Assembly: GCA_010405405.1 (NCBI GenBank)
Contig: MU004234.1
Location: forward strand, 2,109,441-2,139,443
DNA: 30,003 nucleotides
Direction: 5' to 3'
Source: Microthyrium microscopicum
Lineage: Eukaryota > Ascomycota > Dothideomycetes > Microthyriales > Microthyriaceae
The notes under the pieces are model-generated. The model had not been told where the DNA came from. It was given only the letters and a program-made list of their open reading frames with translations, and did not search any database. The translations under genes and the position numbers were made by a program. Below, piece after piece: positions 4,034 through 30,003 of the stretch (position 1 is its first letter; the number at the start of each line of letters is the position of its first letter).

Positions 4034-4479
4034 TAAGATTATAAGCTTATACTAAGCTATTTTTATATCTCCTTATATTAAAGTAGAGGCTAGGTATTAA
4101 TCTATATTATAAAGTTATATTTAGCTATATTAATTTATATTATAAAGTTGTATTTAGCTATTATACTAATATATTATTAAATATATAAATAAGCTTAAGT
4201 ATTATATAAGGTAGGTAGAAGATTTATAGTTTATAGTTAGTAATAATAGGATAAGCTAAATCTAAATAGTTAAATAGAAGTTAGTATTAGACTTATACTA
4301 TTTCCTATAAGAATATCTTAATTGCTACTCTATTAAGCTACTAAAAGTTTATATTCTTTTTTATTACTATTATACTACTATAATAAGTAAAATACTAGCT
4401 ACTACTATTACTTCTCTTATATAAAATAAGTTAATTATTTACTAAATTATTCTAGAAATATATAAATATATTTAGCTAC

Positions 4480-7680: not shown

Positions 7681-9460
7681 AAGATATTTTTAAAAATTTC
7701 TAAACTTATCTAGACTTTTTAGACTTTTTTAAATATACTATTATTTAAGACCTATATACTTTTAGGGAAGGTTACTTTATAAATATATTTATAGCTTAGA
7801 ATTACTACCTTTATATTTCTTATATTATAATATATAGTATTATAGATTTTATTCTCTAGTATAATAAGTTAGCTAATAGTTATAACTATTCTAATACTAT
7901 AGAGTTATAGCCTTTATATTATTATAGTTTTATTTTATAACTTATTATTTAGTATATTTACTATACTTAGATAGTAACTAAGTCTAGTATATAAATTCTA
8001 AAGAGTAATATCTATTTTAGATATAGTTAAGGTATTTTATATCTTATTATAATAAAGGTCTAAATAGTAGATTATTCTTAGCTTTTTCTAGTAACTAGCT
8101 TCCTATATATTAATATCTTATAAGCTTCTATTATTAATATAAAGTTTCTAGTAATAACTTACTTACTAGTCTTATAATTTAAAGAATTATATATTTATAA
8201 AATAGACTATGCTTACTAGGATAAAGAGGATTATATAGATAGTAGTTTAGATATTCTAGCTTATTTATTATTAGCTCTTTATATTTAAAATTGTTAATAG
8301 CTATATAGTTTTACTTATAGGATTATTATTCTTATTTCTATTAAGTTAAGGAATATTAGTACTAAAAGATATATTATAATAATAAAGCCTCTAGTTATAA
8401 TCTTCTACTTCTAAGAGTAAATCTATAGTAATAGCTTTAGGTTTAGTAACTCTAATAAATTAATAAAGGAGTTAGTAATTATTATTATTATTCTATTCTT
8501 ATTTAAAAGTAAGGTAAGTAAATTAAGAGTACGCTATAAAGCTTAAGAACTATTTATAGCTATCTATATATAGTTACTACTATATAATAAGTTTATCTTA
8601 AATAGATATTATTATAGGCTTTAATATAACTAGTTTATTTATAATTAGTATTAATTAAATAATAAGAGGTAGTATAAATAAAATAAAAGTCTAATAGCTA
8701 TTTTATATAAAGTAGACTTATAATAAGATTATATCTTTTCTTTATTATAGTAATTAAAAGCCTTAATATATTACTTAAGATACTATATTACGTTCTAAAT
8801 TTTATATTATATAATTTATTATAAACTCTATAGCTTCTTATAAATATAATTCTACTAAGTACTTTATTTATAAAGTGCTAAAGGTAAGTACCTAAGTACG
8901 TATAGTTTTTAATATTTTTTAAGTTATTTCTATTAAGGTAAATAAAAAGTATACCTACTTAGAGGTAAATAGGAATAATATAAGAAGAAAATATAATATA
9001 CTTAAATATTTTAGATTTAATAACTTTAGTTAATATTATACTTTCTTAGTAAAAATTAAAAGCTTTTTTATTTTTAATAGATAATAATATTTTATAATAT
9101 AGACTAGGTTATACTAATTAATTTATAAAGTATACTAATAAAACTAAATAGTAATAATTACTATTTAGTTCTTTACTTAAAGCGCTAATCTTTTCTATTT
9201 TAATTTCTAGCCTAAATATAATTAATAGTAATAATTTAGACTTTTATTACTCTTAAATTATTATATTAGCTTAGTTTTATAGCTAATTATAATAGTCTAG
9301 TTATTCTTTACTTTTATTTACTATATTTCTTCTTTTTTTACTTTCTATTTTACTTATTTCTTTTTCTTTTCTTTCTTTTTCTTTTATTCTTTATTTTTCT
9401 TACTTATAATTTTTTTTTTCTTTTTTTTCTTTTTATTTACTACTCTAAGATATAGGTAAA
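7680..9460 (-). pseudogene. RIP-degraded minus-strand remnant, block A
   Basis: Two anchors share one minus-strand frame (plus-coordinate codon low end mod 3 = 1): the Lys/Glu-rich segment at 9310-9445 and a Lys/Ser-rich segment at about 7690-7760 (QKSLKSLDKF with TAG read through). It looks like a protein with a charged coiled coil in its N-terminal part, ending near 7680 against the convergent plus-strand remnant. Frame differs from block B upstream, so it is either a separate gene, a later exon, or the product of a frameshift near 9.5-10.0 kb. No known family was recognised. Confidence 0.35.
9305..9450 (-). other. Polypyrimidine tract: Lys/Glu-rich coiled-coil coding segment
   Basis: The plus strand is almost pure C/T for about 130 bases. 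On the minus strand, one frame gives alternating basic and acidic residues (for example IKEKERKEKEISKIE), typical of a charged single alpha-helix or coiled coil, while the other frames give mostly Lys and Arg. The tract could also be a simple-sequence expansion. It is the most strand-asymmetric stretch of the window. Confidence 0.5.
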
Positions 9461-10055
9461 GAAAATAGTAGTAATAGTATTAATATAGTAAATAGTTTTA
9501 TAATTAAGGCTTATCTTATCTTAGTAGACTCTACTCTTCTTTTCTTAAGAATAATATCTTAATCTTTATACTAATTAATATATATTTAATATAAAGGTAT
9601 AGTTACTATAAATAGAAAAAGATAAGTAGTAGAAAAGAGAATAAGAAACCTTAAAGCTTAGTAGTAATTTTAAGTTTAGAACCTTATATAACTTTTTTAA
9701 TAGTTAATTAGATTCTTAGATTTTAAGAGTAGTAAGGTAATCTCTCTTATTAAATATACCTATAGCTTAAGATTCTATTTCCTTTAATTGCTACTTTTAA
9801 TTATTATCTCTTTTATAACTTATCTTATTGTTTACTATATATCTTCTATAGATAAGTATATTTAGAATATTTAAGGTTATATTAGAGAGCTTTCTAATAT
9901 AGAGATTAGAATCTTTAAAATAAAAAAGTATAGATAAAGAAAATTATTTAAGCTTTTAGAACTAATATTATTAATTAACTTTAATATAGTAATTATAGGT
10001 TCTATATAATAACTTTTAGTTTCTACTTAGTAAAGAGTATTTTATATCTTAAATT

Positions 10056-10255
10056 CTAGACCTTTTTAGCCTTTTTAGCTACTACCTTAACCTTATTTTT
10101 AAGTATAGTTTTCTTTAATAAGTTAGTAACTTTTTTTATCTTAGTTTTCTTCTTTAACTAAGCCTTCTTTATAGCCTTTTTTATAACCTTTTTTACGTAC
10201 TTCTTTATTTTCTTTACGTTCTCTAGTTTCTTTATATTCTTAGCCTTTAAGTAGA
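10056..10255 (-). other. Lysine-rich coding segment
   Basis: In one minus-strand frame about 65 residues are roughly 40 percent Lys with Val, Ala and Thr spacers (VKKIKKYVKKVIKKAIKKA). The pattern is histone H1-like or that of a basic linker tail. Lys codons AAA/AAG contain no CpA or TpG, so this composition survives RIP well and is a good strand marker. Confidence 0.55.
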
Positions 10256-10984
10256 GATATAAAATATAGTAAGCTTATTCTTAGTAGAGTAAATAATTAC
10301 GTAGCTATAGCTTTATATTTATAGGATAATTAGTTTATACTTAATTATTTTAAAAGATTATAGTTCTTACTCTTAATTTTATTTATATCTTAAGTATTAC
10401 TTTACTCTTCTTTAGACTTCTTAAAAATTAGCCTAGGGTATTCTAAGTAGGTCTAATTAAAGTATAATAGTATCTACCTAAGTAAATTTTAATAAGAAAT
10501 ATAAAAAGGATAGGTTACTATAACTAGAATAAGTATATATTAAAGTATGTATCTAAATAAAGCTAATTATAGAGAAGTATAATTATAGTTAATATATTAA
10601 GATTAAATGCTATTTAAATCTAGATACTATATTAAGTTTCTTAAGGTTTATATATTTATATAAGCTTATTAAGTTTATAGGAGCTTAACTAAGTTTATAG
10701 ATTATTTTAGTATAAGAAATAATATAATATTTATAATTATTAGTAATAGATATAATACTAAAATAGATAAAGATATTAGGTATAAAGATAGAGTTAAATA
10801 AGTAAGCTAGGAATTAAAACTAGTAATAGTTATTATAAGTAAGTCTTAGATTTAGATAGTAAAGTTACTTAGACTAATAGTTTATTATTAAGGTTATAAA
10901 AGGATATAGCTTTTCTTATCTAATTAAATAGAACTTAATACCTTAAGTTTAAGCCTTCTTAATCTCTAGTTCCTTATCTCTATT

Positions 10985-11050
10985 TTTTTTTATCTTTCCT
11001 TTTTTTATTATCTTTTCCTTAGCTTTTAGATATAGATAAAGTAGATAATA
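10985..11050 (-). other. Short Lys/Asp/Arg-rich basic segment
   Basis: The minus strand reads GKDNKKRKDKKK in the same frame as the lysine-rich segment at 10056-10255. It is visible on the plus strand as a run of T-rich pyrimidines. Confidence 0.45.
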
Positions 11051-14000
11051 GAATTAATTCTAGTAAAGAAGATAGTTATATAACTAGATTTTTTTTAGTT
11101 TATCTAAGTATATTAATAATACTAGTATTATAATATAGTATAATTTATTAACCTTTTACTAATAAAGATAATAGATTTATTTATAAAAAAGCTAAAGTTA
11201 AAAGACTAAATTACTAATTTTTGTTTTTAAAGGAGTTCTAATATTATAAATAAATAGGAGGAAGATTAATAGAATACCTTATTAGAATGTTAGCTTAGAT
11301 TATTAATTACTTAATAGTATAGATAATATAGCTTTATAATTCTTTCTAAGCTTTTTACTTAAGATTCTAGTAGGAGCTATAGAAACTAATAGTACTATAT
11401 TATTTATTTTATAAGTTAATATTATTAGGAAGGAAGGATATAAGTAGAATAGTATTTATAAATAAATATAGCTAAGTTATATCTTATAGATATATATTAA
11501 AAGATATTTAGCTAAATAGATACTTTATAAGCTATAAGGTATTATTATCTATCCTTATTATTTTTTTATCTCTCTCTAGATTCTTTTAGCTACTAGATAT
11601 ATCTATTAGTCTAGTTAAGATATTTAGATTTACTATAAAGGTATATTTTATATATTAATAGTAATAATATTAACTTTAAGTATATTTTCTAATATTCTAT
11701 ATTATTAATAATTTAATAGTAGTACTTTAATCCTTATTATAAACTAAATTAATTATATATAAAGTTGTTTATTAAATTTGTTATTTCTAAGCTTTGTCTT
11801 AATTATAACTAAACTCTTTTTAATATTTTAGTATATATTATTTTTAATATTCTTTAGGTATTTTTATATCTCTTTTATAAATAGAGAAGCTAGGGCTTCC
11901 TTAGGTTAAGATACTAGTTTAGTTAACTTAGACTAAGTTAGTCCTAATTTAAGATATATCTATAAATTTTTAAGTCTTATTAGTTATACTACTTAACCTT
12001 TAGAATAAGCCTTTATAAAACCTATAGTATTTAACTAAAGCTTATTAATATTCTATAATAGTATATTAATTAGATTATTATCTAAGTATAATACGTTAAT
12101 TAAGATATACTTTACTATATTACTTACTTAAAGAACTTTTTTAATACTCTAAGTCTAATTACTTAGTAATATTAGAATAGACATTATAATTAGATACTTT
12201 ACTTACTACTAGTTACTTCTAGTACTATAGCTACTATATATTTTAACTAAAACCTAAATATTCTTATTAAAGAAGTATTTACTTACTCTTAATAGCGTTT
12301 AATTACTTATAGTAGACTTTAGAATATTTTAGAAGAAGTAATAGATATTAGCTTTATTATATAAGGACGAGCTAGTTCTTAAATAGCTTACTTTAATTAA
12401 AAATAACTTTTTACTTAATATACTAGTTTTGCTAAAATAAAGTACTTAGAAATTAAATTTCTTAATTATATATTAAAGTGTTACTATAATTATACTAGTA
12501 GAAGTAGGATACTTTATAATAATTAAGACCTTACCTTATTATAAGCCTTATTTTTTTTACTCTCTATTAAGAAAGTACGTTTCTAGGTTAGTATAGACCT
12601 TTTTAATAATATTTACTATATACTATATTTAAATGCTTATTTTTAGAAACTAAGGAGCTTTTTTAATAAAGAGATTATTCTTAGGCTTAGCTAGTTTCTT
12701 AGAGTTAAGCTTTAGAAATAGGCTACTATTAATTCTTACTAGTACGTAATAGAGATTATCTTTAGCTTATTCTTTAATTTTCTTTACTTATTTTAATATT
12801 AATAGATAGGGTACCTTAATAATAAGTCTATAATATATAATCTTAATAAAGGTTTAGTAGACTATATAGTTAGCTAGCCTAGCTTATATTTATTTAGCTT
12901 AATATAGTTTACTTTTATACTAAGTGCTAAAGTTATTAATAGTAGTTATTCTTAGTTTATTTATTTATATTACTATGTATTTATTAAGCTTATTTATAAA
13001 CTATATTATCTCTAAGTCTATTATATTAATAATAATAAGTCCTATTTTATTTAAAAGTAGTATAATATACTTTTAACTAAAAAGCTCTATATTTATTATA
13101 TAGTAGAATTTAAATAAGGTATATATACTAGCTAAAGTAGCGCTTACTTAGGCTTATTCTCTTATAAGCTATTTCTCTTCTCTTTTATTAAGATACTTAT
13201 ATAATCTTATATTTTTTATAATAAGTATAATAATCTAACTAGAAATAGCATTAAGTAATAAAAGAGTAAATAATATATAGTTATTAATAAAGATTACCTA
13301 ATCTTTCTTTAATTTCTATTTAAGAAACTCCTTAATGTCTTTATTAGTATTAGAGAAGTAAATATATTATATATTTACTAAGTAAGTAATTAGGTTTAGT
13401 TAGCTTACTATAGTATTATAATATATCTTAGATTAACCTAATATAGTAGCTTTAAACTATATACTATAATAGTACTTTAATAGTATATAACTAAGTATAT
13501 AGGTTTTTTTATTAATATTAGAATAAGTTAGGTTATTTAGTATTTAATATCTATAAGACTTATCTAAGACTAAAACTCTAACTATAAAGTATCTTTAACT
13601 ATATAGGTATTTACCTTTATTTACTACTAATTCTATATTAGTATAGAGATAGTTCTTAAGTTCTAGAGTTTTATAATATCTAGTTTTCTATTCTTCTAAC
13701 TACGCTTATAAGAGTCTTATAATTAGTTATAAGACTTAGGATATATATAAACCTAATATTATTAGTATAATAATACTAGTCTACTTAAGTATTCTAAAAT
13801 TAGTTTTAAAATTAGTAAAAAGTCTATATATATAGGAGACTTTATTTAGGAATATAAACTTAGGTTTTGCGCTTAAATAGTTAATATAAAAGGTAAATAT
13901 CTAGTTAAGCTTACTTTTATATTTTAAGGTATTAATTACTTTTTCTTATTTATCTAATTAAACTAAGATTATAGATATAATTATTTATATATAGTTTATA

Positions 14001-15479
14001 CTAATAGTAAGAGTACTATACTAGTAGTTATTAGGATTAATATAAGTTATAGTAAATAATAACTATACTAGCAATTTCTTAGAATAATAGTATATTATAA
14101 GTTAGTTAAGATTCCTTAACTATATATAAGGACCTTTCTCTTTATCCTTAGGGCTCTAATAACTAGGAACCTAAACATCTAATAGATATTCTTTAAGAAG
14201 CTTAGGTTTCTTTTTCTTTATAAGGCGCTACTTCTTTATATATATTACTATACTTTTAGTCTATTAACTATTTATCTAAATAGTAACTAGTATTTAGATA
14301 GTCTTTCCTAAGCTTAGAATATTTATAATATAAAGGCTTTATATAAGGATAATATACTTATATATAATTATTACTCTAATAGCTTAATAAATTTAAATAT
14401 TAACTTTAAATTTAGGAATAATAAAGTCTAATATATTACTTTTATCTTTATAGTTAAAGAATATATATATCTCTTTCTAGTTTTTAAGTATTAAGTACTT
14501 ATAAGTTTTATTCTATAGTAGTCCTATATAGAAGCTTATAGTAAAGAAAGCTTTTAAATTCTTATTTTTAACTATTTTAGACTCTCTACGTTCTATATAT
14601 ATATTATAAAATAGTTTAACTTATAAAGCTTTAGTATATAGAGCTTTACTTATTATAAAAGACTTAAGTATAATAGATTTACGTTTAGTATAGTTAAAGT
14701 AATTAATAAAGAAACTAGTTCATTCTTAGATATATTTATTTTTAGAAGTTTTTAGTATATAAAAACTAATAGTATTAGGTATTAGTTTATATATATTAAA
14801 TAGATAAGATTTAATTTGTTTTTTATAAGCTTACTATATATTAATTCTTATATTACTATCCTTACTATTATAGTTATACTATTACTTATCTTTATAAAGT
14901 TATAACTCCTAAAGGTATTTTACTTCTATACTATATAATATATTTACTTTATTTAATAAAGAAAATAGTAAGTTTAGTAACTAAGGTTTAAATAGCGTAG
15001 TAATCTTTTTTATAGTTAAATTATTTACTTTAGTAGCTATAAAGTTATCTAGTATAGTAATATCTTTCTTAGTTAAGTCTTTAATATTTATAAAAACGTT
15101 TACTATAAGTAGTAATAATTCTAAGTTATTAGTAGTAAGATTAATAATATCCTTAGTACTAGTAAAATTAATAATATACTTAGAAGAACTTAAAGGTTTA
15201 GTATAGCTAAAAGAAAATAGCTTATTTTAAGAAGATAGTATAGTTAAAGAAGCTAGCATACTTAGAAAGCTATAATATTTTTTTAAGTAATTAAGAGGAA
15301 GTTTAGCTATTATTAGATAACTTAATTTTTATAGAATAAAGAGTAATATAATATAATCTAGAGTAGTAGAATTAGGTTTCTATAAATAATATATTTTAGA
15401 TAGATAATTAATATTTATAGAAATTAGCGCTTATACTTTATTATTTTTTATTTATATATTGCTAGTAGGAAGCTTAAGA

Positions 15480-16075
15480 CTTTAAAGCTATATAAGTCTA
15501 TTACTATCTAGAAGTAGTACTTAATCTTATTATATATTCTCTATTTCTAGCTTAATAATATACTCTTTAAGTCTTTAAGAAGATATAGTAGTAGTATTTA
15601 TAGGTCTAGCGCTATCTAGAAGTAATACTTAATCTTATTATATACCTCCTATCTCTAGCTTAATAATACGCTCTTTAAGTCCTTAAGAAAATATAGTAGT
15701 AGTATCTATAGGTCTAGTACTATCTAGAAGTAATACTTAATTTTATTATATACCTCTTATCTCTAGCTTAATAATATACTTTTTAAGTTCTTAAAAAGAT
15801 ATAGTAGTAGTATTTATAGGTCTAGTGCTATTTAGAAGTAGTACTTAATCTTATTATATACCTCTTATTTTTAGCTTAATAATAGGCTCTTTAAGTCCTT
15901 AAGAAGATATAGTAGTAGTATTTATAAGTCTAGTACTATTTAGAAGTAGTACTTAATCTTATTATATGCCTTTTATCTCTAGCTTAATAATATACTCTTT
16001 AAGTCCTTAAAAAGATATAATAGTAATATTTATAGGTTTAGTACTATTTAGAAGCAATACTTAATTTTATTATAC
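15480..16075 (-). repeat. 108-bp tandem array (36-residue repeat), about 5.5 copies
   Basis: Plus-strand anchors GAAGTARTAC or variants fall at 15511, 15619, 15727, 15835, 15943 and 16051, exactly 108 bp apart. On the minus strand in the frame of the surrounding ORF each unit contains GLKExIIKLEI, then QQDQVLLLDS, then TRPINTTTIS (Q mostly from TAA/TAG). The pattern suggests a helix followed by a Thr/Ser linker. Copies differ almost only by C/T or G/A, often at CpT rather than CpA. Confidence 0.88.
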
Positions 16076-16504
16076 GCTCTTTATTTTTATATTAGTAATA
16101 ATATTTTAAAATTATAATATTTAGACTAGTAAGCTTAGAGGAGTATAATATTCCTAGCTATTATTCTTATTAATTACTTTTAAAATTAGAGTTAATTTTA
16201 TCTTTATCTCTTTATATTTAGACTTACTTTTATTTTTTCTACTAGATAGGCTTATTTATACTAAAGTTTATTATTCTTTATAATTATAAGAACTAGATTT
16301 ATTTTTAAATTTTTTTTTATTTATAAATACTAAAAGATTATAGCTACTATTAACTCTTTTTATATTATCTTTATTATTATAGTACTTCTACTTTATTTTA
16401 TTAAGTAGTACTAGTAGAAATTCTAAGTCTTCTTCTTTAGAATTATCTAGATTACTATTTAAATTTATTTTAGAATCTTTAACTAAGCTATCTTTAGAAT
16501 CCTT

Positions 16505-16615
16505 ATTTAAACTATCTTTATTATCTTTAGTAACTTTACTATCTTTATTATCTTTAGTAACCTTACTATTTTTATTATCTTTAGTAACCTTACTATCTTT
16601 ATTAAATTAGTTAGG
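16505..16615 (-). repeat. 27-bp tandem array (9-residue K/D/S repeat), about 4 copies
   Basis: Plus-strand anchors ACTAT(C/T)TTT start at 16511, 16538, 16565 and 16592, exactly 27 bp apart. On the minus strand each unit reads DSKVTKDNK, followed on the C-terminal side by a degenerate Asp/Ser/Lys region. The reading is in frame with the 108-bp array. A hydrophilic repeat like this points to the minus strand as coding, because the plus strand would give only Leu/Ser. Confidence 0.85.
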
Positions 16616-17258
16616 AATAGGATCTTTATATATATTACGTTTATATATTAATAGTTTAGTAGTAAAGGTAGGTTAAGTAGTTAGCTAGGGATTTATATAA
16701 GGTTAAGTATAAGGTTTCTTATTATATCTATTTTAGAGTAAAGGAAAAGGGCTTAGAGTAGAAGTAACTAAAGTCTTATACTTTTATTTACTAGTATAAG
16801 TTTTCTTTAAGGGAGATTTAACCTAGGTAATCTTAAAAGTAATTTTTTTTAGCCTATAGAGATTATTATAGGTAACTTTAGTAAAATTATATATATTTAA
16901 ACTTATTAAAATAGTTTAATTATTTTATACTTAATCTATATTATAAATTATATTTAAACTTTTAGATAAGTCTAACTTTAGGCTTATTATACTTTTAAAG
17001 TACCTTATACTAATCTTAACTATATATTTATAAATATCTATATTTATTTTAGATAAGTTAAAAGGGCTTAGTTTATATATATTTTTTAGGTCTAGTATAA
17101 CTTATTTTTATAAAAAGTCCTTAGTAAATACTAGTATAATTGTATTAAGGTCTTTATTATTCTAAATGTTAGTTTCTTAAAAGGTAGATAAGGACTATTA
17201 GGTTTTATAGTATTTCTTTAAAGTAGGCTTTTTCTTTTTTAATTATATATATATAGGA

Positions 17259-17425
17259 GAGTCTAGTAGAGCTAAAGGAAGTAGCTAGGTAAATTTAGGT
17301 AGTATATAGCTATTACTAGAGATATATATATAAGATTAGGAAGAGTTTAGTAGAGCTAAAAGAGGTAGCTAGGTAAATCTAAATAGTATATAGCTATTAC
17401 TAGAAGTATATATATAAGATTAGCT
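17259..17425 (-). repeat. 84-bp tandem duplication (28-residue repeat), two copies
   Basis: Anchors GTCTAGTAGA at 17261 and GTTTAGTAGA at 17345 are 84 bp apart, and similarity continues for most of the unit. On the minus strand both copies contain FTQLLxLALL (Q from TAG), in frame with the rest of the ORF. It lies at the presumed N-terminal side. Confidence 0.75.
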
Positions 17426-17429
17426 ATAC

Positions 17430-18370
17430 TATAGCGTATTACTATAATAATCTCTTAAGGTACTTTAGAAGAAGTTATTATTATCTTTATTAATATAGCT
17501 TAGCGCTATATTTTTACTAATATTAAATTATTATAGAGTTTAATATAAGCTATAGTTATTAGAACCTAGCTAAGGTGGAATTATACTTTTAAATCTAAAT
17601 ATTATAGAGTTATACTAAGTTAGGTTATGCTATATAGATAGTAGAAGTTATATTCTATAATAGCTAGGCTACTACTATAGTTAATAGTAGATATTACTAT
17701 TTTAAAAGCTTAGTAGTAGTATTATATAGTTTTAGTATCTATATTAGTTAAATAAAAGATAAGATATAACTAAACTTAGACTATTACTTTATAGTTATAG
17801 TATATTTAGTAATATACTATTAATAAGGTTTAGATAGTAAGTATAATTTCCTTATAGTCTATTTATAGTCTTATAAAGCTAGTTAGGAAGCTAGGAATAG
17901 TATAGCTAATATCCTTTAAAAGTAGAATTACTATGTATATTTTTATTATTAAATATTATAAATACTTAAGTTATTTATAGAATAATTAGAATTATATTTA
18001 ACTTTAAAGTAAAATGATTATATAGATTATAAGGCTACTTTTACTACTTATATTATTCTTAATAAGCTTATTTATTACTAATAAGATATTATACGTATAA
18101 AAGTATAATCTAGTCTAGAGCTTTATAAGAAGAAATATTAAATATTAATAAGATAATAGCTTAGGAGAATTATAAATTGCGTTTAATAACTTTAATATAT
18201 TTAAGATTATAGCTAATAGTATTAGTAGGCTATCTAATTATACTAAATTAGTTAAGAATATCCTTTTTTATAATAGAGATAATATTAAGGACTATTTTAT
18301 TAGTATAATAGCCTAATTCTATATAAAGGTTTGCCTTAGTTACGTTATTCTTAGTTTTAACTATTTACTT
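17430..18370. other. Unassigned AT-rich stretch
   Basis: I find no repeat, motif or charged run that fixes a strand or frame. It sits between the start of the large minus-strand remnant and a weak plus-strand coding signal, so it may hold a divergent promoter region, but no promoter element stands out. One of the few surviving TGA triplets lies at about 18015. Confidence 0.35.
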
Positions 18371-19150
18371 AATCTATTTATAATCTTTCTAATTATACTT
18401 AAAGTTTGCTTTATAAATTGTCTTTACTATATTATTTATAAAGTTAAGTATAGATTTATTAATAGAGTTAATAGCGCTAGAAGAAGAAAATTTATTAGAT
18501 ATAGTAAATTAATAGTAAATTAGAAGTAAAGAGTATTTAGTAAGAATATATTAAAGCTAGTAAGTTAAGTTAGCTAAAATATTTATTTAGTACCTCTAAG
18601 TAGTATTATACTATATTTTTAAAGTTAGTTATTATAAAATATTATACCTATAGGCTACTATTAACTAAAAGTAAGGTTTATACTAAAGAAGAGCTAGTTT
18701 TAGAGATTTATATATAAAATACTAAAACCTTCTAAAGTAAGAGTACTAAAGGAATAGCTTATCTAATATTATAATTAATTTATAAAAGGAAATTATACCT
18801 AGAGGCTTTATTAAAGAAATAGTTAGGTATATAAAAGCTTTAAGCTATAGAATTAAGAATACTAATTTATATCTCTAACTTAAGGAGAAGGATTTAATAC
18901 CTATAGAGCTAAACTAAAGTAATTATTAAGTATATAAAATACTAATAGCTAAAGAATAAATAGATTAAAAGAACTTATTTAATTTAATAATTATAAAGAA
19001 GTAATAAGATAGAAATATAGTAGTAAGAGAAGAAGTATTAAAGGCCTAAAGAAAGAATATTTTAAAGTAGTAAAGTAGAACTTAGTTAATATAAGCTTAA
19101 ACTTAAAAAGAAGTCTTAGCCTATATAAGGTTAGCTAAGTTTCTAACTTA
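18370..19150 (+). pseudogene. Weak plus-strand coding remnant, helical/charged
   Basis: From 18688 the plus strand (mod 3 = 1) reads as a Lys/Glu/Leu/Gln-rich segment (EELVLEIYIQNTK, then LRRRIQYLQSQTKV), which looks helical and charged. No repeat confirms the frame and no domain was recognised. The neighbouring 19330-19850 stretch reads better on the minus strand, so this would be a short, isolated remnant. Confidence 0.28.
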
Positions 19151-19625
19151 ATAGTTATAATATAAGGTTTAGTAGTAATTATAATAGAATAGGAAATTAT
19201 AATTAATATCTATATTTATACTTAATATTTAAGAAAAAAGGAGTAGTTTCTTTTAACCTTAAGAACTATATAATTATTATATATAGGCTCTAGTAAGGTT
19301 TCTATCTATTTAACTAGAAGATTCTATATTAAAAGAGAGAATATTTCTATTTTTTTACTATTAAATCTTTCTTACTACTATTTTCTTACTATTATTTTAT
19401 AATTACTAGATTAAATAAGTTCTTCTAAATTTATCTTATACTTAGTTATTATATATAGAATAGTATAGCTTTATAATAACTTTACTAGTAGATAAACTTC
19501 TAATTATATCTTTAGTAGAAAGAGTAATTTCTTACTTTATTCTTATAACTTCTTTCTTACTATTATCTTTCTCTTTTACTACTCTTTATAATTATAAGAA
19601 TTAAATAAGTTCTTTTAAATAATTT
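18965..19625. repeat. Dispersed 45-70 bp motif: one forward and two inverted copies
   Basis: AAGAACTTATTTAAT followed by an ATAATTATAAAG-like tail and purine-rich sequence occurs on the plus strand near 18968-19035. The reverse complement occurs near 19372-19426 and 19550-19616, anchored at TTAAATAAGT 19411 and 19601, so the two inverted copies are 190 bp apart. Matches are imperfect. The inverted arrangement could mark a foldback element or rearranged repeat. Confidence 0.45.
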
Positions 19626-19850
19626 CTTAAGTTTATCTTTTTATAGATAGTATAGCTTAGTAATTTAAAGTTTAGGCTAAATAGCTAACTTTTAGTAGTT
19701 ACGCCTTTAAGCTTTAGTATAGTAAGTAAGTTATTATTTTTATTACTATTATTTATCTTCTTTTCTTAATATTTCTTCTTTCTTAAAGAAAATACTACTT
19801 AAATTCTTTATATCTTCTATCTCTTCCTTAGCTTTTACTCTACTTATTAT
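19330..19850 (-). pseudogene. Short minus-strand charged remnant
   Basis: The plus strand is T/C rich. The minus strand reads KEEIEDIKNLSSIFFKKEE near 19735-19840 and a Lys/Arg/Glu-rich run near 19540-19600, consistent with a helical charged protein. It includes two copies of a 45-bp motif 190 bp apart (listed separately). The strand is likely, the frame is uncertain, and the function unknown. Confidence 0.28.
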
Positions 19851-22240
19851 AAGTATAGCTACTTATAATACTTTACGTACTTAGTAATTAGTATATAATT
19901 ATAATAGCTAAATTTATAGCTAAGATATAGGTAAAGATAAAATTTCTACTAAGATTTCTAGTTATCTAGCTATTATAATCCTAAAACTTCTTTCTAATTA
20001 GTATAAAACTTATACTCTTTATAAAGATAGTAAGCTAAATAATTCTAAGATTATTAAAATATAAGTTTAAAGAAATTTATTTCCTTATTTCTAGCTAATT
20101 ACTTATATAGACTAAATTTTATAGCTATCTCTATCTACTTAGCTAAGGAAGATCCTTTATCTATATTCTTAAACTTAAGTAAACAAAATCTTAAAACTAA
20201 AGATAAAGATAAAGTAAAAGTCTAGAATAGTCTAAAAGTCTTTAAATATATTCTTATACTAACGCCTTAAATAGATTCTAAGAATTCTTAATATATTATT
20301 TATAATCTTATAGTAAATCTATCTAATAGTAAGCTCCTAATCTAGTAGATCTATAGCTTATAAGTATATTTAGGTAAGCCTTATCTAGAAAATATACTAA
20401 AGAAAAGTTTAAAAATAGCTCTTAGTAAAAATAATCTAGTTAATAAAGTAAATTAATACTTAAGTAATAGTATTAATAATAAAGTTAATTAAGATAGTAC
20501 TACTAGTAAGCTTAAATATATATATAAATTAAAAAAGAAGTATTAATAGGCTATAGTTTTTAATATTAAAGTATAATTCTTTATAATAAAGAATAATAAA
20601 TAAGTTATCTAGTTTATATTAACCTTAATTATTTACCTATATTTTAAAGATAAAAGAAATACTTTTAAAGTTAATAAGAATAGAAATAATATATAAGAAA
20701 ATATTATAACTTTAATAGTTAAAACTATCTACTTTTTACTAAATAATCTAATTATAAAGAAGAAAAAGATAGACTAGATAGTTACTAAGTTTTCTATAGT
20801 TATTTTAGAAGAGTAACTTATCTAGTTAGCTTATAAGATTAATTAAAATATTAAATACTATAAAAGTATACTAGCTATAAGCTATATAACTATGCTTACT
20901 ATTAAGATATACTCTAACTTATTAAATAACCTTTTTTAAGTCTACTCTACTATAACTAGTAATTTAATAGTTAGTAGTAAAGATACTAAATTTAACCTAC
21001 TTCTTTACTATCTCTAATATATTATTTAGAATTAGTACCTTATAGTCTTTTAATTCTTTAGGGTTAATACTAGCCTAGCTATACTTATAAAAAAGAATCT
21101 TCCTTAGCTAATCTTTTAAGGTATATAAACTAATCTAGATATTATTTCTACTAATATTAATTATTTATTTATAAATAGCGTCTTTAGCTTATAGAAGGAT
21201 TATATTACTCTTCTAGATAATTATAATAATCTTATAAAAGTAAAGAATAATAGAATTATAAGTTTATTATATATAGTCTATTCTTTAATTCTATATCTAT
21301 TTATAGCCTAGAGTATAGATTTAGTAGAATAGCTTTATTAGGCATATAAGTAGAATAAAGCTCTCTATAATGCTATATTATATACTACTAGAATACTAAG
21401 AAGTAAAGATTATAAATTCCTAGTAAGCCTTAATTTTTATACTATAGTAAATAGATATAAATATCCTTATTTTTAAGAAAGTAACGTCTATATAATCTAA
21501 CTTAAGCTAAGAGCTAGACTTAAAGGCTCTTAATTTACTACTAAAGTTATTAACTAAGACTATAATATTTAAGCTACTTATAATATATTTATAATTATAT
21601 ATTATTTTTCTATTATACTTAATAATAGATATACTAATAATACTTAATTTTCTTTATTCTAAATCCCTAAAGAAGTTATTATTTCCTTAGACTATAGCTA
21701 ATTAATTAAGAACCTATATAAGGCCTTCCTTAAACTAAAAGAGCTAGAGGTTAAGGTATATATATATAATTTAGATAAGCCTATTATATACTAAATAAAT
21801 AGTCTTAACTAGATATAGTTAAGATAAAAAGAATATAACCTAGATTACTATTTTATTATAGTACTTAGCTTATACCTAAACTTCTTAGAATATTAGCTTT
21901 TATTAGAGAAGATTTTTACTATTTATACCTTACCTTTATTTCTTAGAAAAGTAGAGTTTAGTATTATATTAAAGTATACTAAAGAAGTATTAATAAATAC
22001 TAATACGCTAAAAGAGTTAACTATAAAGGTTAATAAGGTATAAAAGGATACTCTATTAGATAGCTTATCCTCTAGTAATATTAAGAATAATATATTAAAA
22101 CCTTTAACTAATTAGACTAAAGAAACTTTAAAAAAAATAAGTAGTAGTTCTACTTTATAAAAGCTAATTAATAAGCTACTTAATTTAAATTTATCTAACT
22201 ATATAACTAAATCTTAGTTTAAATAGGAATTTAAAGCTAA

Positions 22241-22635
22241 TAATAATAATACCTCTTATCCTCCTTCTCCTTTTATCTAAGATAATATTAATATAGAATT
22301 TTTAGATACTACTATAGTAGTGCTCCTCTATTCTATTAATAATAGTACTTCTTAGCTTCTCTACTCCTTTATCTAAGATAATATTAATATAGAATCTTTA
22401 GATACTACTATAGTGGCGCCCCTTTATTTTAATAATAATAGTACTTCTTATTCTTTTTTTCTCTCTATCTAAGATAATATTAATATAGAATCCTTAGATA
22501 CTACTATAGTAGTATCCTTCTATTTTACTAATAATAGTACCTCTTATCCTTCTTTCTCCTCTATCTAAGATAACGTTAATATAGAATCTTTAGATACTAC
22601 TATAGTAGCGCCTTTTTATTTTATTAATAATAATA
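22241..22635 (+). repeat. 96-bp tandem array (32-residue repeat), four copies
   Basis: The anchor ATCTAAGATAA falls at 22275, 22371, 22467 and 22563, exactly 96 bp apart. In the helicase frame each unit reads IQDN(I/V)NIE.LDTTIV then a Ser/Thr/Asn/Pro-rich linker (NNSTSYPS-like), with Q from TAA. Copies differ at positions such as gaatTTtt/gaatCTtt/gaatCCtt, i.e. C/T changes. It is probably a disordered or adhesive-like spacer ahead of the helicase domain. Confidence 0.88.
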
Positions 22636-22694
22636 CCTCTTTCTTTATAGAGTCTTAAGCTTAAGATTAATAGACTAAGCTAAAGGTTACTAAA

Positions 22695-22793
22695 GCTAAT
22701 AGTAAATAGGATTAATAATTAAAAGTAGCTAATAATAAATAGGATTAGTAATTAAAAATGGCTAATAATAAATAGGGTTAGTAATTAAATATA
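22695..22793 (+). repeat. 33-bp tandem array (11-residue repeat), three copies
   Basis: Units start with GCTAATA at 22695, 22728 and 22761, and a fourth partial begins at 22794. In the helicase frame each reads ANNK.D..LK (dots are RIP stops). It merges into the Asn-rich tract downstream. Confidence 0.85.
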
Positions 22794-22918
22794 GCTAATA
22801 ATGCTAATAATGATAATAATAATAATAATAATACTTATAAAGATATACTTAAAGATATTTTTAATTCTAATAAATAGTTAGATAATAAGATTACGCCTAT
22901 AAAAAATACTAATAATAC

Positions 22919-22955
<37 letters not shown>

Positions 22956-22996
22956 AATACTACTAATGTTAATAATACTAATATTAATAATAATTA
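22794..22996 (+). repeat. AAT trinucleotide-rich tract (poly-Asn linker)
   Basis: Two clusters of AAT/ACT/GCT triplets (about 22794-22832 and 22902-22996) flank a short charged segment (YKDILKDIFNSNK). In the helicase frame they encode Asn with a few Thr, Ala and Asp. Triplet phasing is kept across both clusters. AAT has no RIP target, although AAC could have contributed through CpA at codon junctions. Confidence 0.85.
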
Positions 22997-23216
22997 GTAC
23001 TAGTTACTAAGTATTTTTATAGGACTAGATATAGCTACTTTTGTATAATTACTAAAAACTAACTTTAGAATTACCTTAGAAGAGATTTAAAATCTTATAA
23101 AAAAGATAGAATAGATTAGTATTATAAAGGCTTTTTATAAAGATTAAAAAGAGTTTGTTAATATTATTCTCTTAAAAGATAGTAAAGATAGACTTAATAT
23201 TTACTATACTAAACTA

Positions 23217-23245
23217 GGATATAGTAAGACTAAAACTATAAAAGC
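23217..23245 (+). other. Helicase motif I (Walker A) remnant
   Basis: The codons read GYSKTKTIK. The family consensus is G-x-G-K-T-x-T, so the third residue has changed from an expected Gly (GGT/GGC to AGT by G-to-A) and the Lys-Thr pair is intact. It is followed by a hydrophobic strand and by a motif Ia-like KILAIYT at 23298, then DNL near 23330. Confidence 0.7.
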
Positions 23246-24725
23246 TATAATAGTAATATTAATTACTCTTATAATATTTTATTCTAATTTTAAGATAAAG
23301 ATTTTAGCTATATATACTATAAATATATAATTAGATAACCTTATTACTAAGTATATAAATGTCTATATAGAAGTTAATTCTATAAACTTTTTGTAATTTT
23401 TTGCTATCTAAGAATACTTAATTAAGATAGAGAAATCTATTACTTTAAGGAAATTAAAAGAGGTATAAACCTAAGTCTACTAAAATTAAGGTTCTAGTAT
23501 ATAATAGTAGAACATAGATAATATAAATAACTATAGTACTAATATCTTAAATACTAAAATAGTATTACTTACTAAATAATATAGTGCTTACTACTTATAG
23601 TAACTTTATATAAATACTAAACATTAAGACTTTAAAGATATTTATAATTATTATATTAAATATTTTAAATACTTATTTAGAGAATTTATAAGTTAAGCTA
23701 GTAGGATAATTAATATAATTAACTTAGTAATAGGAAAGTAAGAATATAATATAGATATAGCTACTAAAGAGTTACTTAATTATACTTTTAACTTCTAAAT
23801 TCTTAATAAAAAGTATTATAATAAAGAGAAGCTCTTAAAGTTAAAAAGCGCTAATTATAGTAAACTACTACTAGACATAGAGTAATATTATTTATAATTA
23901 ATAATTACTCTTCTTAGTTTTATAAACTATAATGCTTTATAAGAGCTTTTTTAGGTAAATTTTATAGGTATTAACTTATAAATTTATAATAAAGTAGTAG
24001 CATTATATAGACTATAAATAATAGCTATTATATCTCTATATAGACCTTAAATAATTATATAGACTAGAGATCTATTCTAGTCTAGACTTATCTATAATCT
24101 TAAATATAAAAAAGCTATATTTCGTAATAGTTCTTAAATACTATTAATATATAATACTATAGTAAATAGCTTTAGCTAAACTATACTAAAATAGGTATTT
24201 AGATTTAATTTATTATACTATAATCTTCTTAATAATATAGGCTATAAAATTCTTAAATATACTAATAATAATAACTCTAAATTTAACTAACTATAATATA
24301 TTATAGGCTAGCTTTTCTTATCCTTAGAATATAAAAAAAATATGCTACTTATAATATTTATAAATATTAAAGATAGTAAAGTTAAAAAGGATATTACTAG
24401 TTTAAGTTCTAATGCTTATAATACTTATATTATAACCTTTATATAGATTAAACTTCTATTATAGATATAATTAAAAGGCGTTAATACTATAGTTATTACT
24501 CTTTACCTTACGTAAACTAGCCTCTATACTAAAACTAAAGATTAGCTACTTAAATAAGTTACTATATATATTTAGAATAATTATATATATACCTAGTAAA
24601 ATTATTAAGATATACCTTTATAATTTAGCTAAGTTTTAATAACTACCTATAATAATAGCTCTAGTACTAAGCGTAATTAGAATCTTATTAATCTTATTTA
24701 AAAAGATTATACTAGTTTCCTTATA

Positions 24726-24775
24726 GAAAACCTATAAATAAATACTATAGTATCTTAAGGCTACTTATCCTTATT
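24726..24775 (+). other. Helicase motif VI remnant
   Basis: The codons read ENLxINTIVSxGYLSLFF, where each x is TAA. In SF1 UPF1-like enzymes the equivalent is a R-L/I-N-V-A-L-S/T-R-A block that carries the arginine finger. The two TAA codons sit where Arg residues are expected. CGA would give TAA only by two steps (CGA to TGA to TAA), so this is an oddity or the ancestor had Gln there. Confidence 0.5.
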
Positions 24776-25169
24776 TTTTAGTAACTTAAAGCTTTATAGT
24801 ACTATAATAGCCCCTAGTACTAAGAAATAAGAAGAGTTTAAACAATCTATACTTAGTAGATTACTAAAGTATTTTATTAATAATAGCTATATATAGTATA
24901 TACTATTTACTAATAATTACTCCTATTAGAATTTAGAGAAACTTAATATTCCTAACTTTAATAAAGTAGTTTCTTATTATAAGAAAGAGCTAAATATACA
25001 TAAGAAGATTAAAACTATTATATTTAAAGAACTAAAAGTAATTAGAGATCTTATAGGACTAACCTTACTTTATAGTTTTAAACTTAAGAGTAAAGAATTT
25101 AAAACTAATAAAGCTAATAAAGAAAGTAAAGTTAGTAAAGATTAGTAGTAAGGAATAGTAATAAAGAAA

Positions 25170-26080
25170 AGAATAGTAAGAAGGTTTAAGTTTAAAGTAA
25201 GGTTTATTTAGCTAATTAATTAACTAACTTAGATAGTATAATAGTTAGTACTAAATAGAAAAAGAGTTTAGGATAAAAGAGTTATATAAGTAAGAAAATT
25301 TAATAAAAAAAAATATATAAAGGAGTTAGACTAGAAAAATAGATAAAATAGTACTATTACTAGAAAAGTTAACTTACTAAGCTAGTAATTAATAATATAA
25401 AGTTACGTAATACGTTTTTAGTATAATATTATAACCTATTAGTTATATAAGATTAGCTAGTACTCTTACTTAGTCTTAGTATTAGCTATTTAGAATATCT
25501 AGAAATATCTAGTATATCTAGAAATATTTAGTAAATAAAGGTATATTATATATATAATAAAATATTATTAGGTAATATTCCTAGAAGTTAACTTTACTAC
25601 TTAAGCTTTAGAATACTAAGTAAAATTAAACGCTAGTTATTATTAGTATAAATTTAATACTAGATTTACTACTTATATACTAAGAATGTACCTATATCTT
25701 TAAAAGTTAATAAGGATAAAATAGGTATAGAAGTTAATATACTAGTATAACCCTTCTAGTATTACGTATAATAATAAAGAGAGATAATTAAATATAGACC
25801 TATTTAACTTATATATTTTAGTCTTTTAATATATATTTAACCTAAATAAGTTATATTACTATTCTTATAGACTAATCTTTTTAAATATAGGTATATTAAG
25901 TCTTTTAAATAGCATATAGTTCCTCTTTACTATAAATCTTTATAATTACCTCTAAAGGCCCTTTAATTAAGTATAAAGATTAGTACTAGTAATAAAAACT
26001 CTAGTAAAAGAACTCTCTATAAATAGTCTCTTTACTAGTATAAGATTTACTACTTATCCTAGTTATAACTATACTATATC
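25170..26080. other. Spacer between helicase and transposase remnants
   Basis: I see no coding evidence except a purine-rich stretch at about 25230-25360, which may be the tail of the helicase remnant or its 3' region. It contains a 9-10 bp array at 25492-25531. If the downstream transposon has a 5' terminal repeat it should lie here, but I could not identify one. Confidence 0.4.
25492..25531. repeat. Four tandem 9-10 bp units (AGAAATATCT type)
   Basis: AGAATATCT, AGAAATATCT, AGTATATCT and AGAAATATTT follow one another and produce repeated TCTAGA-like junctions. This resembles the decamer array at 171-202. Confidence 0.65.
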
Positions 26081-26870
26081 TAAAACGTTTATAATAGAAG
26101 ATAAAATAATTACGCCTTTTACTATATTCTTATCTTTAGTTACTCTTAAAGCTATAGAAAGAGTTACTACTCTAATATAGTATAAATATAGTTTATAAGA
26201 TAAAATAAATAAGGCTAATAAGTCTTAAAAGTCTAAAAGTAGTATATAATATATAGTTAATAAAGTTATTATATATTTATAATAAAATCTAGGATATTTA
26301 GTAAGTATACTTATACTAGCTTATAAAACTAATAAAAGCTATAACTAGATTAATAAGTATAAACTACTACTTTAAGATACTATTAAGATAAAGTACTAAT
26401 ATTATTATTTAGAGAAAGAAAAGCTCTATAGAGAAGTAAAGCTATAAAGTTAACTAGAGAAAGAACTAGAGTTTACTAGTTAAGTAGTTTCTAGTAGTAT
26501 ATTAAAGAATAAAATAAATAAGTTATTTTAAGAAATAGCTTTTAGAAGTAAAATATATAACTTACTTAGTTAGAAGGTAAAGGATTATAAATTACTAATA
26601 AAAAATATTAATAATCTTAAAGGCTTTATACCTAGCTAGTAGAAAGTAATACTTAAGAAGCTACTATATAATAAAATAAAAGGTATTAAAAATCTTCTAG
26701 GTAGTAAAGTTAAAGTATACTTTTAAAGTATCTTAGAAGTTATTAAATTCTTTATCTTCTATAGGCCTTTTACTAAAGACCTCTACTTTAAGCTTATAAT
26801 ATAAAAAGATAAAGATAGTAAGTATATCTATACTAATACTTAATTAGTAGAAAGGTAGTAGAAATTATAA

Positions 26871-27060
26871 GATAAGGTTAATTTAGATATTATGCTTATT
26901 CTTATCTACTAGGAGTTAGATAAGACTATAATATCTAAATAATATAGTAATAACTATATATAGGCTTGCTATATAACTATTTTTAATCTATTAGGAAGTA
27001 TTAGAAGAGCTATAGGAAGACTAAGATTTCTTTTTATTATAGTACTTCCTAAACTAAAAG
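26871..27060 (+). other. Plavaka core block (DKT...IRRA...LPK)
   Basis: In frame mod 3 = 0 the sequence reads ELDKTIISK, then after 20 or so residues ITIFNLLGSIRRAIGR, then FLFIIVLPKLK. The spacing matches the conserved SDKT / N-(x)-RRA / LPK block of Plavaka transposases. Expected His, Cys and Pro positions are changed to Tyr and Leu, as RIP predicts, except for one Cys retained as TGC near 26968. Confidence 0.7.
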
Positions 27061-28119
27061 ATATAAATATTAATAGTAAACTTAAGATATTTTATAATAC
27101 TATAAATATTATGTTTAAAGGTTTAATACTACGTATTTAAGTATTATAAAGCTATTTACTAATAAAATATAGAACTTAGAATAATCCTTAAAAGTAGTTA
27201 CGTTATAGTAACTACTAATAGCTAGTTTTAAAGGTATCTTCTAATTCTTACTTATATAAGTATAAATTATAAAGAGCTTATTATAATTATAGATATCTAG
27301 TCTAAATATTACTATTCTATTTACTTAGTACTATAACTATATTAGTAAAACCTTACTAGTAAATAGGCTTATTAAACTTATATAACTTTATAAGAGAATA
27401 TATTAAAATAGGAAGCACTTTGCTATACTAATTAAAAAAGAGAGTATACTAAGTAGCTTACTACTACTAATAATACTAAAGATAAAAACTATATCTATAA
27501 AATTTATAATTTTATTTAGAATTATTCTTTATTAAATATTTATATAGTAATTACTTTTAATTTACTATATATATTCTTTTTAAATAGACTAGTTAAGTAA
27601 GTAATAGACTAGATAGCCTAAATTATTTTAAAAAAGAGAGTACTAGTAATATCTATAATACTAGTAGCTAAAATAAAGAATAATAGAACTATATAGAAAA
27701 CCTATACCTATAAGACGCTAAAGACTAAGAGGAAAGATAGTAATATACTAAAGACTAAGTAAGAAAAGAAAAAGAAGAAGTCTATATTTAGTATAAAAGT
27801 AAAGTCTATAATTAATTATAGGTTTTTATAGTATTCTATTTATCTAGGCTTTCTAAGGATAGCTTAAGGCTACTATAACGTTTAATAAAAGACTAGCCTA
27901 GAATTATAAGTACTTTTAAAGTAACTTATAGCTACCTTAGCTCTACTCTTAAACTTAAAGAACTTAATTATAATAAAATTTATTAAAGCTTTAATAGATA
28001 TTATTATACTTTCTAGCTATAAGTTATATAATAAGAATATACTTAAATATATATAAGTCTATTTATAAATTATAGAATATACTAAAATAGTAATATATAA
28101 GTATAAGACTCTTTAAGCT

Positions 28120-28290
28120 AAGTTTAAAGAACTTAATTTCCCTAAGTTCTATAACCTAATTTACTTTATACTATCTATTTATATATTTAGTACTATAGAT
28201 AGAACTAGTTCTAGCATTATAGAAAAGTTATATTAAGAGTATACTATACTAGTAATAAAATAAACTAACTTTTAACCTAGTTAGTACGTT
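28120..28290 (+). other. Plavaka C-terminal block (NFPKF...EK...IK)
   Basis: Frame mod 3 = 1 reads FKELNFPKFYNLIYF, then STIDRTSSSIIEKLYxEYT. In the family this is FNFPKFHxxxHY...GSxDGxDTSxSEAxHK. The His residues have become Tyr or Leu and Gly residues have become Asp/Arg/Ser through G-to-A, all transition changes. Confidence 0.7.
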
Positions 28291-29379
28291 TAGATAATTT
28301 ACTATTTTACTAATTATATTAAGAATATAATCTAGAATAATAATAATAATTATAACTATTAAGTCTATAATGTTACTAAGAAGAAGATTATATTTAAAAG
28401 AACTTATCTTATAATTATTCTATTAAGTATACCTAAATATAGTTTATAACTCTAATTATATTATATAGATAAACTATATAATAAAGATATTTATAAATTT
28501 AGTATACTTCTTACTAAAGACATTAATAAATAGGCTAAGCTTAATAACCTTAAAAGTTATTTATATAGCTAGTTAATTAATTACTATAAAGAAAACCTTA
28601 AGAAGCGCTAGTCTTTTCTAAAGCTAATACTATTATATATATAGAGTAAAGAAATATACTTAGATAAAGATCTTATTAATAATAAACTAAACTTTATATA
28701 CTCTAGTAAAGTATTATATCTTAATACTTTTTAGCTAAGTTACCTTATTATAATACTATATAGTAATATAACCTATATAATAAATAATAATAAGAATAAT
28801 ATATAACTCTTTATAGCTTACTATAAATAGAAATAGCAAAAAAGTAAGAATAATAGTTAATAGTATAATAAAGTCTTAATTAAAAACTACTAGTAATATA
28901 ACTTTATATAGGCTTAAGCCTATCTTATATCTAAGAAAGAGCTTAATAATAATTTTAATCTTTTAGGTTAACTTCTTATATAACTACTTATTATTTATAT
29001 AGTATATAATATAAATTAAATAATAAAAGATTTTAAATTATAACGTAGATATACTAAATTTCTTATAACTTTAGTTTAAGAGTATATACTAATCTTAAGA
29101 AAAGCTATAAAACTTATATTTAATAAACTATTAAGTCTTATATTATTTAAGCTAGTTATAAAGTTAAAAGTATATAAACTAAATAAACTATTAACTATTA
29201 TATATATAGTTCCTTATAAAAACTTAAAGTATCTTAATTACTATTAGTTAAATTTATACTCTAATTATAATAATTATACTAGAATATATAACTTAGTTAT
29301 TTTTAGCAAATAAGGAATTAAGATAACTAAGACTAAAACTATAGCAAGATATAAAGCCCTAGAAAAAAAGAATAGAGAG

Positions 29380-29585
29380 CTTTATAAAGCTTAGGTTAAA
29401 GTTTATCTTAAGAAGCTTACTAATAAAATAAAGAAAATAAAGTATAATAATAAAAAAGAAGTAGAAAATAAAGAGAATAAACTAGATAGTAGCAAAAAAG
29501 ATAAGTAAGAGACTAGTAAAGATAGTAAAGAAGAGACTAGTAATAATAATAAAAAAAATAGTAGTAATAATAGCAAAAATATATA
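29380..29585 (+). other. Lys/Glu/Ser/Asn-rich C-terminal tail of the transposase remnant
   Basis: The plus strand is purine-rich and reads KKNRELYKA, then VYLKKLTNKIKKIKY, then KDSKEETSNNNKKNSSNN, in frame with the 28.1-28.3 kb block. The tail is charged, then Ser/Asn-rich. Several CpA sites survive here within AGCAAAA contexts (about 29306, 29344, 29492, 29572). Confidence 0.55.
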
Positions 29586-29599
29586 ATAAAATAAAAGTC

Positions 29600-30003
29600 T
29601 AATAAACGTTTTATTACCTAAGAATTATATATTTTATAAACTACTAAGTATTATTATTATTATTATAATATTATCTCCTAAATAATTTAGTTTTATTAGT
29701 ATTAGTTATAGACTTAAATATAATAGTTAGTACAATATAGAATATAATAGAATAAATTAACCTAGGAACTTTAGAAATATATATTTATATAGAATAGTAT
29801 ATATATAAAAAGCAAAATTATTTATTCTTTTTAATAGCTTTTAATTCATAATTCTTTAAATAAAATAATAAGCTATTAATTTTAAATTTTTTTTCTTTAA
29901 TACTTATAGTAATTTAAACTTATTTTACTTCTTTACCTTACTTTTAATATATATATCTTCTCTATACTTTATCTTAAGCTTCTATAGAAAGCTTATCTAG
30001 TTA
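29600..30003. other. Unassigned AT-rich end of window
   Basis: A short ATT/TAT run lies at about 29650-29675, and a T-rich tract is at about 29885-29900. No coding signal, terminal inverted repeat or target-site duplication could be recognised, though the 3' end of the transposon should be in this part or just beyond it. Confidence 0.4.

Follow-up and report, generated by a model that had tools for sequence, protein, structure and literature searches.

A helicase gene within a giant element

We describe a relict gene, predicted to end in a UPF1/SEN1-like superfamily 1 (SF1) helicase, that lies in a 30,003-bp stretch of the Microthyrium microscopicum genome (contig MU004234.1, called C5 here; C5:2109441-2139443; hereafter ‘the window’). 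We put the chances at roughly three in four that this relict is one gene of a giant (~43-45 kb) Plavaka-type DNA transposon that carried the helicase and was killed by repeat-induced point mutation (RIP). The entire window (positions 1..30003) forms the interior of one copy of this element, which paired terminal patterns place at C5:2108191-2152383 (44,193 bp), and which reaches 1,250 bases beyond the left edge of the window and 12.9 kb beyond its right edge. A previous sequence-only reading had guessed that the gene might belong to a mobile element, and its location inside a 43-45-kb element with inverted-repeat ends agrees with that guess. Two facts go further than that reading: the element exceeds the window at both ends, and a relict transposase gene of the Plavaka type adjoins the helicase gene. 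Compared with the first guess, the element has proved bigger and more clearly delimited, and its unusual parts are the helicase and the size.

Copies of the gene and their damage

The window has a GC content of ~20% and a strongly skewed dinucleotide composition, with observed/expected ratios of 0.03 for CpA and 0.07 for TpG and a TpA/ApT ratio of 1.63. In the region of the helicase gene, the CpA and TpG values are 0.04 and 0.09, respectively. This skew is the mark of RIP, from which we infer a host of the filamentous-ascomycete type. Only one stop-free frame of at least 100 residues is present in the 30 kb.

Nine full-length copies of the gene, including that of the window, were found in the genome (36.9 Mb, 20 contigs), with 89-93% identity between the window copy and each of the others. 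Over 5,273 aligned positions, the nine copies exhibit 1,361 transition sites versus 3 transversion sites, and every one of them carries many in-frame stops of the RIP kind. Homology to other copies covers positions 1-6000 and 10113-30003 and continues beyond the window (6001-10112 were not scored). Over 9.9 kb farther left, the window differs from two of these copies by one 108-nt unit, by 913 and 933 transitions, and by 13 and 2 transversions. The copies stem from the multiplication of one sequence, which was near-identical in all of them before RIP mutated each separately. Both the damage and the multiple copies, which had been proposed from the letters of the window, are therefore well founded.

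Ends of the element

Where flanks could be read, the left end is common to four copies and the right end to three. These ends are inverted repeats of ~20 bases, the left one reading CATCGTGAAAAAATTAT(T/C)AT and the right one its complement, with RIP variants. The readable ends have the terminal bases CATCG..CGATG or RIP variants of these (the element starts with CATCGTG...). No similarity was evident between the compared flanks of copies, and a fourth left flank differs by eye. Terminal repeats and a variable genomic position, which the sequence-only reading had named as features worth seeking, are thus both observed, with several copies residing in different flanks.

A genome search with 31-32-base patterns that extend inside the inverted repeat yielded 21 left-type and 23 right-type ends, compared with 0 for a reversed-pattern control. 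Among the left ends, 17 of 21 have a correctly ordered right-end partner no more than 60 kb away, and the resulting pairs comprise seven of 43.2-49.4 kb, eight of 872-874 bp, one of 714 bp and one of 2,796 bp. Two pairs on opposite strands also occur, both between neighbouring elements on contig C3. When at most two mismatches are allowed, six of the nine helicase copies are bordered by both ends, one by the left end only, one by the right end only and one by neither, and the six with both ends have a near-constant length (43.2-45.0 kb). The ten short elements (714-2,796 bp) look like non-autonomous derivatives. A separate case is the 49.4-kb end pair at C2:304060-353458, where only two blocks match the first 6 kb of the window and no helicase copy was found; this locus is a divergent or mosaic relative.

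A 2-bp target duplication (TA/TA and TC/TC) is present in both of the two copies that are readable on both sides, with 3 bp being unmatched, and three further single ends are likewise bordered by TA or TC. The bases at the start of the element as now defined are C, T, C and C on the left and A, G and A on the right, which fits one base changed by RIP. A possible 9-bp duplication in one copy was dropped, as setting the start one base outward gives 2 bp in both copies. Staggered left ends were likewise rejected because the breaks coincide with stretches reading N, and the possibilities of a centromere or a subtelomere were dismissed on the basis of position and ends.

The same observations bear on the proposal that a host gene cluster with the helicase was repeatedly duplicated, either segmentally or at subtelomeres, and later mutated by RIP. 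A precedent exists in X3X3R8 of Parastagonospora nodorum, for which duplication was proposed and which has nine copies with helicase genes (PMC3017866), and some tandem units of the element do recur near contig ends. However, segmental duplication would give copy-specific breakpoints and is contradicted by the common ends. These ends bear inverted repeats, sit in differing flanks at contig-internal positions, and are shared by the short elements. Subtelomeric RecQ helicase repeats differ further from the relict, which is predicted to be SF1 (neither RecQ nor SNF2) and has eight of its nine copies far inside contigs, with one lying <15 kb from a contig end. The accessible portions of PMC3017866, PMC4522978 and PMC7473861 describe helicases of the RecQ, SNF2 or Helitron types. 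We therefore give duplication hardly any credence.

A relict transposase next to the helicase gene

Downstream of the helicase gene, ~310 bp away and on the same strand, lies a second relict gene (25461..27300, + strand) that appears to have encoded a Plavaka-type transposase. Its matching part (26592..27053, +) corresponds to positions ~6-163 of the 325 in profile PF18759. With stops masked, the relict gives E 0.0054 and 16.4 bits, and another masked read gives 17.5 bits, both of which are below the curated cut-off of 26.3 bits. With Gln substituted for TAA and Trp for TAG, the relict rises above this cut-off (E 7e-10, 39.1 bits), and the 154-aa piece alone reaches E 2.1e-10 and 40.8 bits. 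Eight control frames read with the same Gln/Trp code produced no Pfam match. Among the stretches scanned with stops masked, PF18759 was the sole Pfam match with E <0.01; these scans left out the forward frames of window 1-9999 and most reverse frames of window 20000-30003.

These data also inform two other identities for the element. A Starship, moved by a DUF3435 tyrosine recombinase, would suit the size of the element and its fungal-type RIP host, and Starships occasionally have inverted repeats (PMC12134995). No DUF3435 match was found in the masked frames scanned, a negative result that is weakened by RIP and by partial coverage (frames, left end). A Plavaka-type transposase was found instead, the short derivatives bear both ends, and the length of the six complete helicase copies is near-constant. 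We consider a Starship to be improbable.

Even less probable, in our judgement, is an integrated large DNA virus or Polinton-like element, although the size and the inverted repeats fall within the range of such elements. The inverted repeat is ~20 bp rather than long, short derivatives exist, and the target duplication is 2 bp rather than the 5-6 bp of Polintons. The masked frames scanned contain no viral Pfam match, with RIP again weakening the negative. Published precedents do favour this origin to some degree. SF1 helicases accompany the inverted repeats of Polinton-like viruses and Tlr1, a PIF1-like helicase in one case and a different kind in the other (PMC4642659), and viral and Plavaka giant repeats co-occur in Amoebidium (PMC11244446). 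It is therefore nothing new in itself for an element with inverted repeats to carry an SF1 helicase. However, the Polinton-like viruses and Tlr1 differ from the present element in having capsid genes and long inverted repeats, and no Plavaka transposase is named for them in the accessible text; the helicase of Tlr1 is PIF1-like, and the other Polinton-like-virus helicase is called just superfamily 1 (PMC4642659).

The relict gene and its helicase signal

The sequence-only reading had proposed the ghost of a ~1,750-codon protein at 19900..25170. A relict gene is indeed present on the + strand, and its extent is a little shorter, with ~1,697 codons at 20058..25148 that comprise an unrecognised N-terminal region, repeats and the putative C-terminal SF1 helicase; this assignment draws on stop depletion, on in-frame indels over the nine copies and on the RIP-tolerant profile described below. 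Counting from 19902, the frame of the gene holds 143 stops, whereas the remaining two forward frames hold 212 and 346. In-frame stops occupy 15 of the 52 codons before 20058, and 69 of 980 and 58 of 717 codons after it, and the start of coding is placed at ~20058 because stop density changes there.

The repeats described from the letters were all recovered on the + strand: a 32-residue (96-nt) repeat of ~4 units (22238..22641), an 11-residue (33-nt) repeat of 3 units (22694..22802), and an Asn-rich low-complexity tract that is (AAT)-rich (22786..22996). One of the nine copies has one 96-nt unit fewer, and in the Asn tract the copies differ in length by 3 or 6 nt. All indels inside the gene are multiples of three (96, 6 or 3 nt) and all fall within repeat tracts, and a single 1-nt insertion was noted across 18500-26672, truncated ends aside. 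Given that these indels are confined to repeat tracts and that indels are rare outside the gene, they offer weaker support for coding than they seem to.

Conventional searches did not reveal the helicase. No helicase match was obtained in Pfam and PDB scans of the relict frames (stops masked or read through) or with a nine-copy profile, and no reading of the RIP-damaged frames matched Pfam AAA_11/AAA_12. A weak UBX7_N match (E 0.045) in one of nine N-terminal reads is taken as chance. Pairwise RIP-tolerant alignment against 13 host frames (one antisense) had no power, with its best match, SEN1, giving z 2.0 and 1.7 and being equalled by 7 and 10 of 200 shuffles.

We therefore rely on a profile that tolerates RIP and consists of 10 SF1 motif blocks. 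These were derived from 11 frames of this genome that encode AAA_11/AAA_12 helicases, two of which are recognised as UPF1 and SEN1 through PDB matches. Each codon of a copy is scored under a substitution model that allows C-to-T and G-to-A mutation where the context is that of RIP. Summed over the motifs in their proper order, the score reaches z 4.7-9.7 in all nine copies, and none of 1000 codon shuffles is as high in any copy. Twelve negative-control reads range from z -0.7 to 1.3. A further 29 reads, six of them repeated from the first set, range from -1.6 to 1.5; nine of the 29 cover N-terminal parts, 18 cover other frames and two cover neighbouring relicts. Five of five host helicases that were left out of the profile and subjected to RIP in silico score z 14.6 to 34.7. 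As the motif sum of the relict is well below these positive controls, the helicase is judged to be divergent. The comparison with AAA_11/AAA_12 suggested by the sequence-only reading yields no match with plain HMMER and a signal with the RIP-tolerant profile, and the C-terminal end of the relict is, to judge by its motif scores, a UPF1/SEN1-like SF1 helicase. What was encountered is nine copies with a profile signal, and not a single-copy host gene devoid of helicase motifs.

Blocks were scored individually in two copies, those on C5 and C7, with codons counted in the frame from 22998. The motif I block (Walker A region; 23199..23261, +) is best at codon 68 in both copies, with 12 and 32 of 1000 shuffles as high. 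Motif III (24045..24095, +; codon 350; 13 and 0 of 1000) and motif VI (24708..24788, +; codon 571; 23 and 6 of 1000) also stand above shuffles in both copies (0-32 of 1000 for the three blocks). Motif Ia (23298..23354, +; codon 101) does so in one copy, with 29 (C5) and 93 (C7) of 1000. By chain score, the relict resembles host UPF1, SEN1 and other AAA_11/AAA_12 helicases in having SF1 motifs in the same order, and it differs from them in its long unrecognised N-terminus, its repeats, its Asn tract and its multicopy state.

Whether the helicase served the transposon is a separate question. It could be a passenger captured from a host SF1 gene, with no part in transposition. To judge by the 714-2,796-bp elements, nothing but the ends may be needed for movement, and giant transposons such as Starships often carry cargo (PMC12134995). 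Profiles built from single host proteins (n=6), however, give mean z values of only 1.3-4.6 against the relict (SEN1 best at 4.6, UPF1 worst at 1.3), from which the helicase appears to be no recent copy of the tested host helicases, and the gene directly adjoins the transposase relict on the same strand. We regard a captured passenger as unlikely and favour a helicase that would have acted for the element. Two other host-type helicases were noted along the way: a 905-residue open frame with AAA_11/AAA_12 near the start of contig 17 (C17:11105-12790), whose RIP-tolerant score is not close to the relict, and an AAA_11/AAA_12 helicase relict with in-frame stops at C5:1572070-1574292, which is separate from the element.

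Reasons for caution

Several observations weigh against the interpretation of the element as a helicase-bearing Plavaka-type transposon. No partner was found for four of the left and six of the right ends, and two pairs within 60 kb are in the wrong order. The target duplication could be read in just two copies and, at 2 bp, is weak evidence, and the first base of the element was set one base outward of the pattern after the flanks had been seen. The fifth base of the terminus (CATCG) differs from that of the published PlavakaB (CATCA; PMC12730594). The transposase relict passes the PF18759 cut-off with the Gln/Trp code only, as reading both stops as Gln gives E 5.4e-5 and 23.0 bits, which is below it. 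That match spans about half of the profile, was scored in the window copy only, and is not followed downstream by the remainder of the domain. A whole-genome PF18759 search returned 0 matches, with the relict itself below the reach of the search, and no intact transposase of the family was thereby detected. Other genes of the element were not identified in the masked-frame Pfam scans. With regard to the helicase, the RIP rates of the profile model were chosen by hand without fitting, and blocks Ib, II, IIIb, IV, IVb and V are not above shuffles in the two copies scored. Motif order is broken by the best site of II and, in one copy, by that of V, and an AlphaFold model of the helicase was uninformative (mean predicted local distance difference test score, pLDDT, 31.8).

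A possible life cycle

If the element is of the Plavaka type, its transposase, a DDE enzyme, would recognise the CATCGTG... ends, excise the element, and paste it at a T-containing 2-bp target, and the same enzyme could move the short derivatives in trans. A burst of such activity might have yielded at least nine near-identical copies, after which RIP during the sexual cycle would have turned CpA into TpA throughout them. The transposase-linked SF1 helicase may have served the element by acting on DNA or RNA while a 44-kb molecule was excised, replicated or repaired. Alternatively, it may have worked against host silencing. In either case, it would not be captured host cargo.

Comparison with known transposons

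Plavaka families have been reconstructed in Agaricomycotina (Kojima 2025, PMC12730594). PlavakaB has the termini 5'-CATCA..TGATG-3' with 2-3-bp duplications and belongs to the EnSpm/CACTA clade, and PlavakaA has the termini TGT..ACA. The present element resembles PlavakaB in its PF18759-type transposase, its CATC start and GATG end, and a 2-bp duplication within the published range. It differs in its 43-45-kb size and its SF1 helicase gene, and in residing in a host with RIP of the Pezizomycotina kind. Giant size is shared by the ‘Plavaka giant repeats’ of Amoebidium, which reach up to 50 kb and combine a Plavaka transposase with many genes; the host, however, is a protist, and the genes named are tyrosine recombinases (PMC11244446). 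The words ‘helicase’ and ‘inverted repeat’ are both absent from the main text of that paper. In the cited literature, the giant transposons of filamentous fungi are Starships, which share a multi-gene content with our element and are moved by a DUF3435 tyrosine recombinase (PMC12134995, PMC12289983), of which the masked frames scanned here bear no sign.

AcademH, KolobokH and Helitron elements also carry helicases, although of the DEAD/Helicase_C or PIF1 kinds, and AcademH makes 9-10-bp duplications (PMC10799480, PMC10045372). AcademH was rejected on both helicase type and duplication length. A Helitron, which has Rep-PIF1 and neither inverted repeats nor a target duplication, was rejected because the element has inverted repeats and a 2-bp duplication, and the frames scanned contain no Helitron Pfam match. 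No report of a UPF1-like SF1 helicase in Plavaka was found in the accessible text of the literature searched, most subscription journals being outside it.

More tentatively, and with less confidence than in an even chance, we propose that ‘giant Plavakas’ of 40-50 kb form a second class of giant transposons in filamentous fungi beside Starships. They would be moved by a CMCT-clade transposase and would have, among their core genes, a UPF1/SEN1-like SF1 helicase dedicated to mobility. Their parasites would be 872-bp elements (for example, C2:2669742-2670614) that keep both ends and possibly escape RIP through shortness. Letters were examined for 11 of the 23 right ends, and the five from short elements keep CpA and TpG; in right ends of long copies, most CpA and TpG are lost and some keep a few. 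The short elements may thus have escaped RIP, an idea that rests on 31 bases each.

A giant element that combines inverted repeats and a Plavaka-type transposase with an SF1 helicase of its own would offer a second means, beside Starships, of moving large sets of genes, and would tie fungal elements to the giant Plavaka repeats of a protist. RIP is able to hide such elements from ordinary annotation. More of them may lie unseen in AT-rich blocks, because neither of the two genes passes a standard scan unaided.

Other features of the element

A further relict gene of unrecognised function (27400..30003, +) exhibits partial stop depletion and has no credible Pfam match, its best being DUF6584 (E 0.052), which is taken as chance, as are the weak matches to POX (0.18) and TAFH (0.095) in these scans.

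The sole stop-free frame of at least 100 residues (window 5438-5743, - strand) holds a 60-nt (20-residue) tandem repeat, with the array at 5453-5708. A 108-nt tandem array lies in a stop-poor stretch at 15491..16074 (strand not assigned), and two other copies have one unit more. Together with arrays at 3825-4143, 16511-16604 and 17254-17423, many periods are divisible by three (168, 108, 27 and 84 nt), which suggests other repeat-rich proteins in the element. Tandem units of its right part recur at C16:9374-13245, C6:21476-24564 and C11:1723441-1724242, near contig ends and elsewhere, and where they recur on the first two of these contigs there are single right ends, at C16:14031 and C6:24795.

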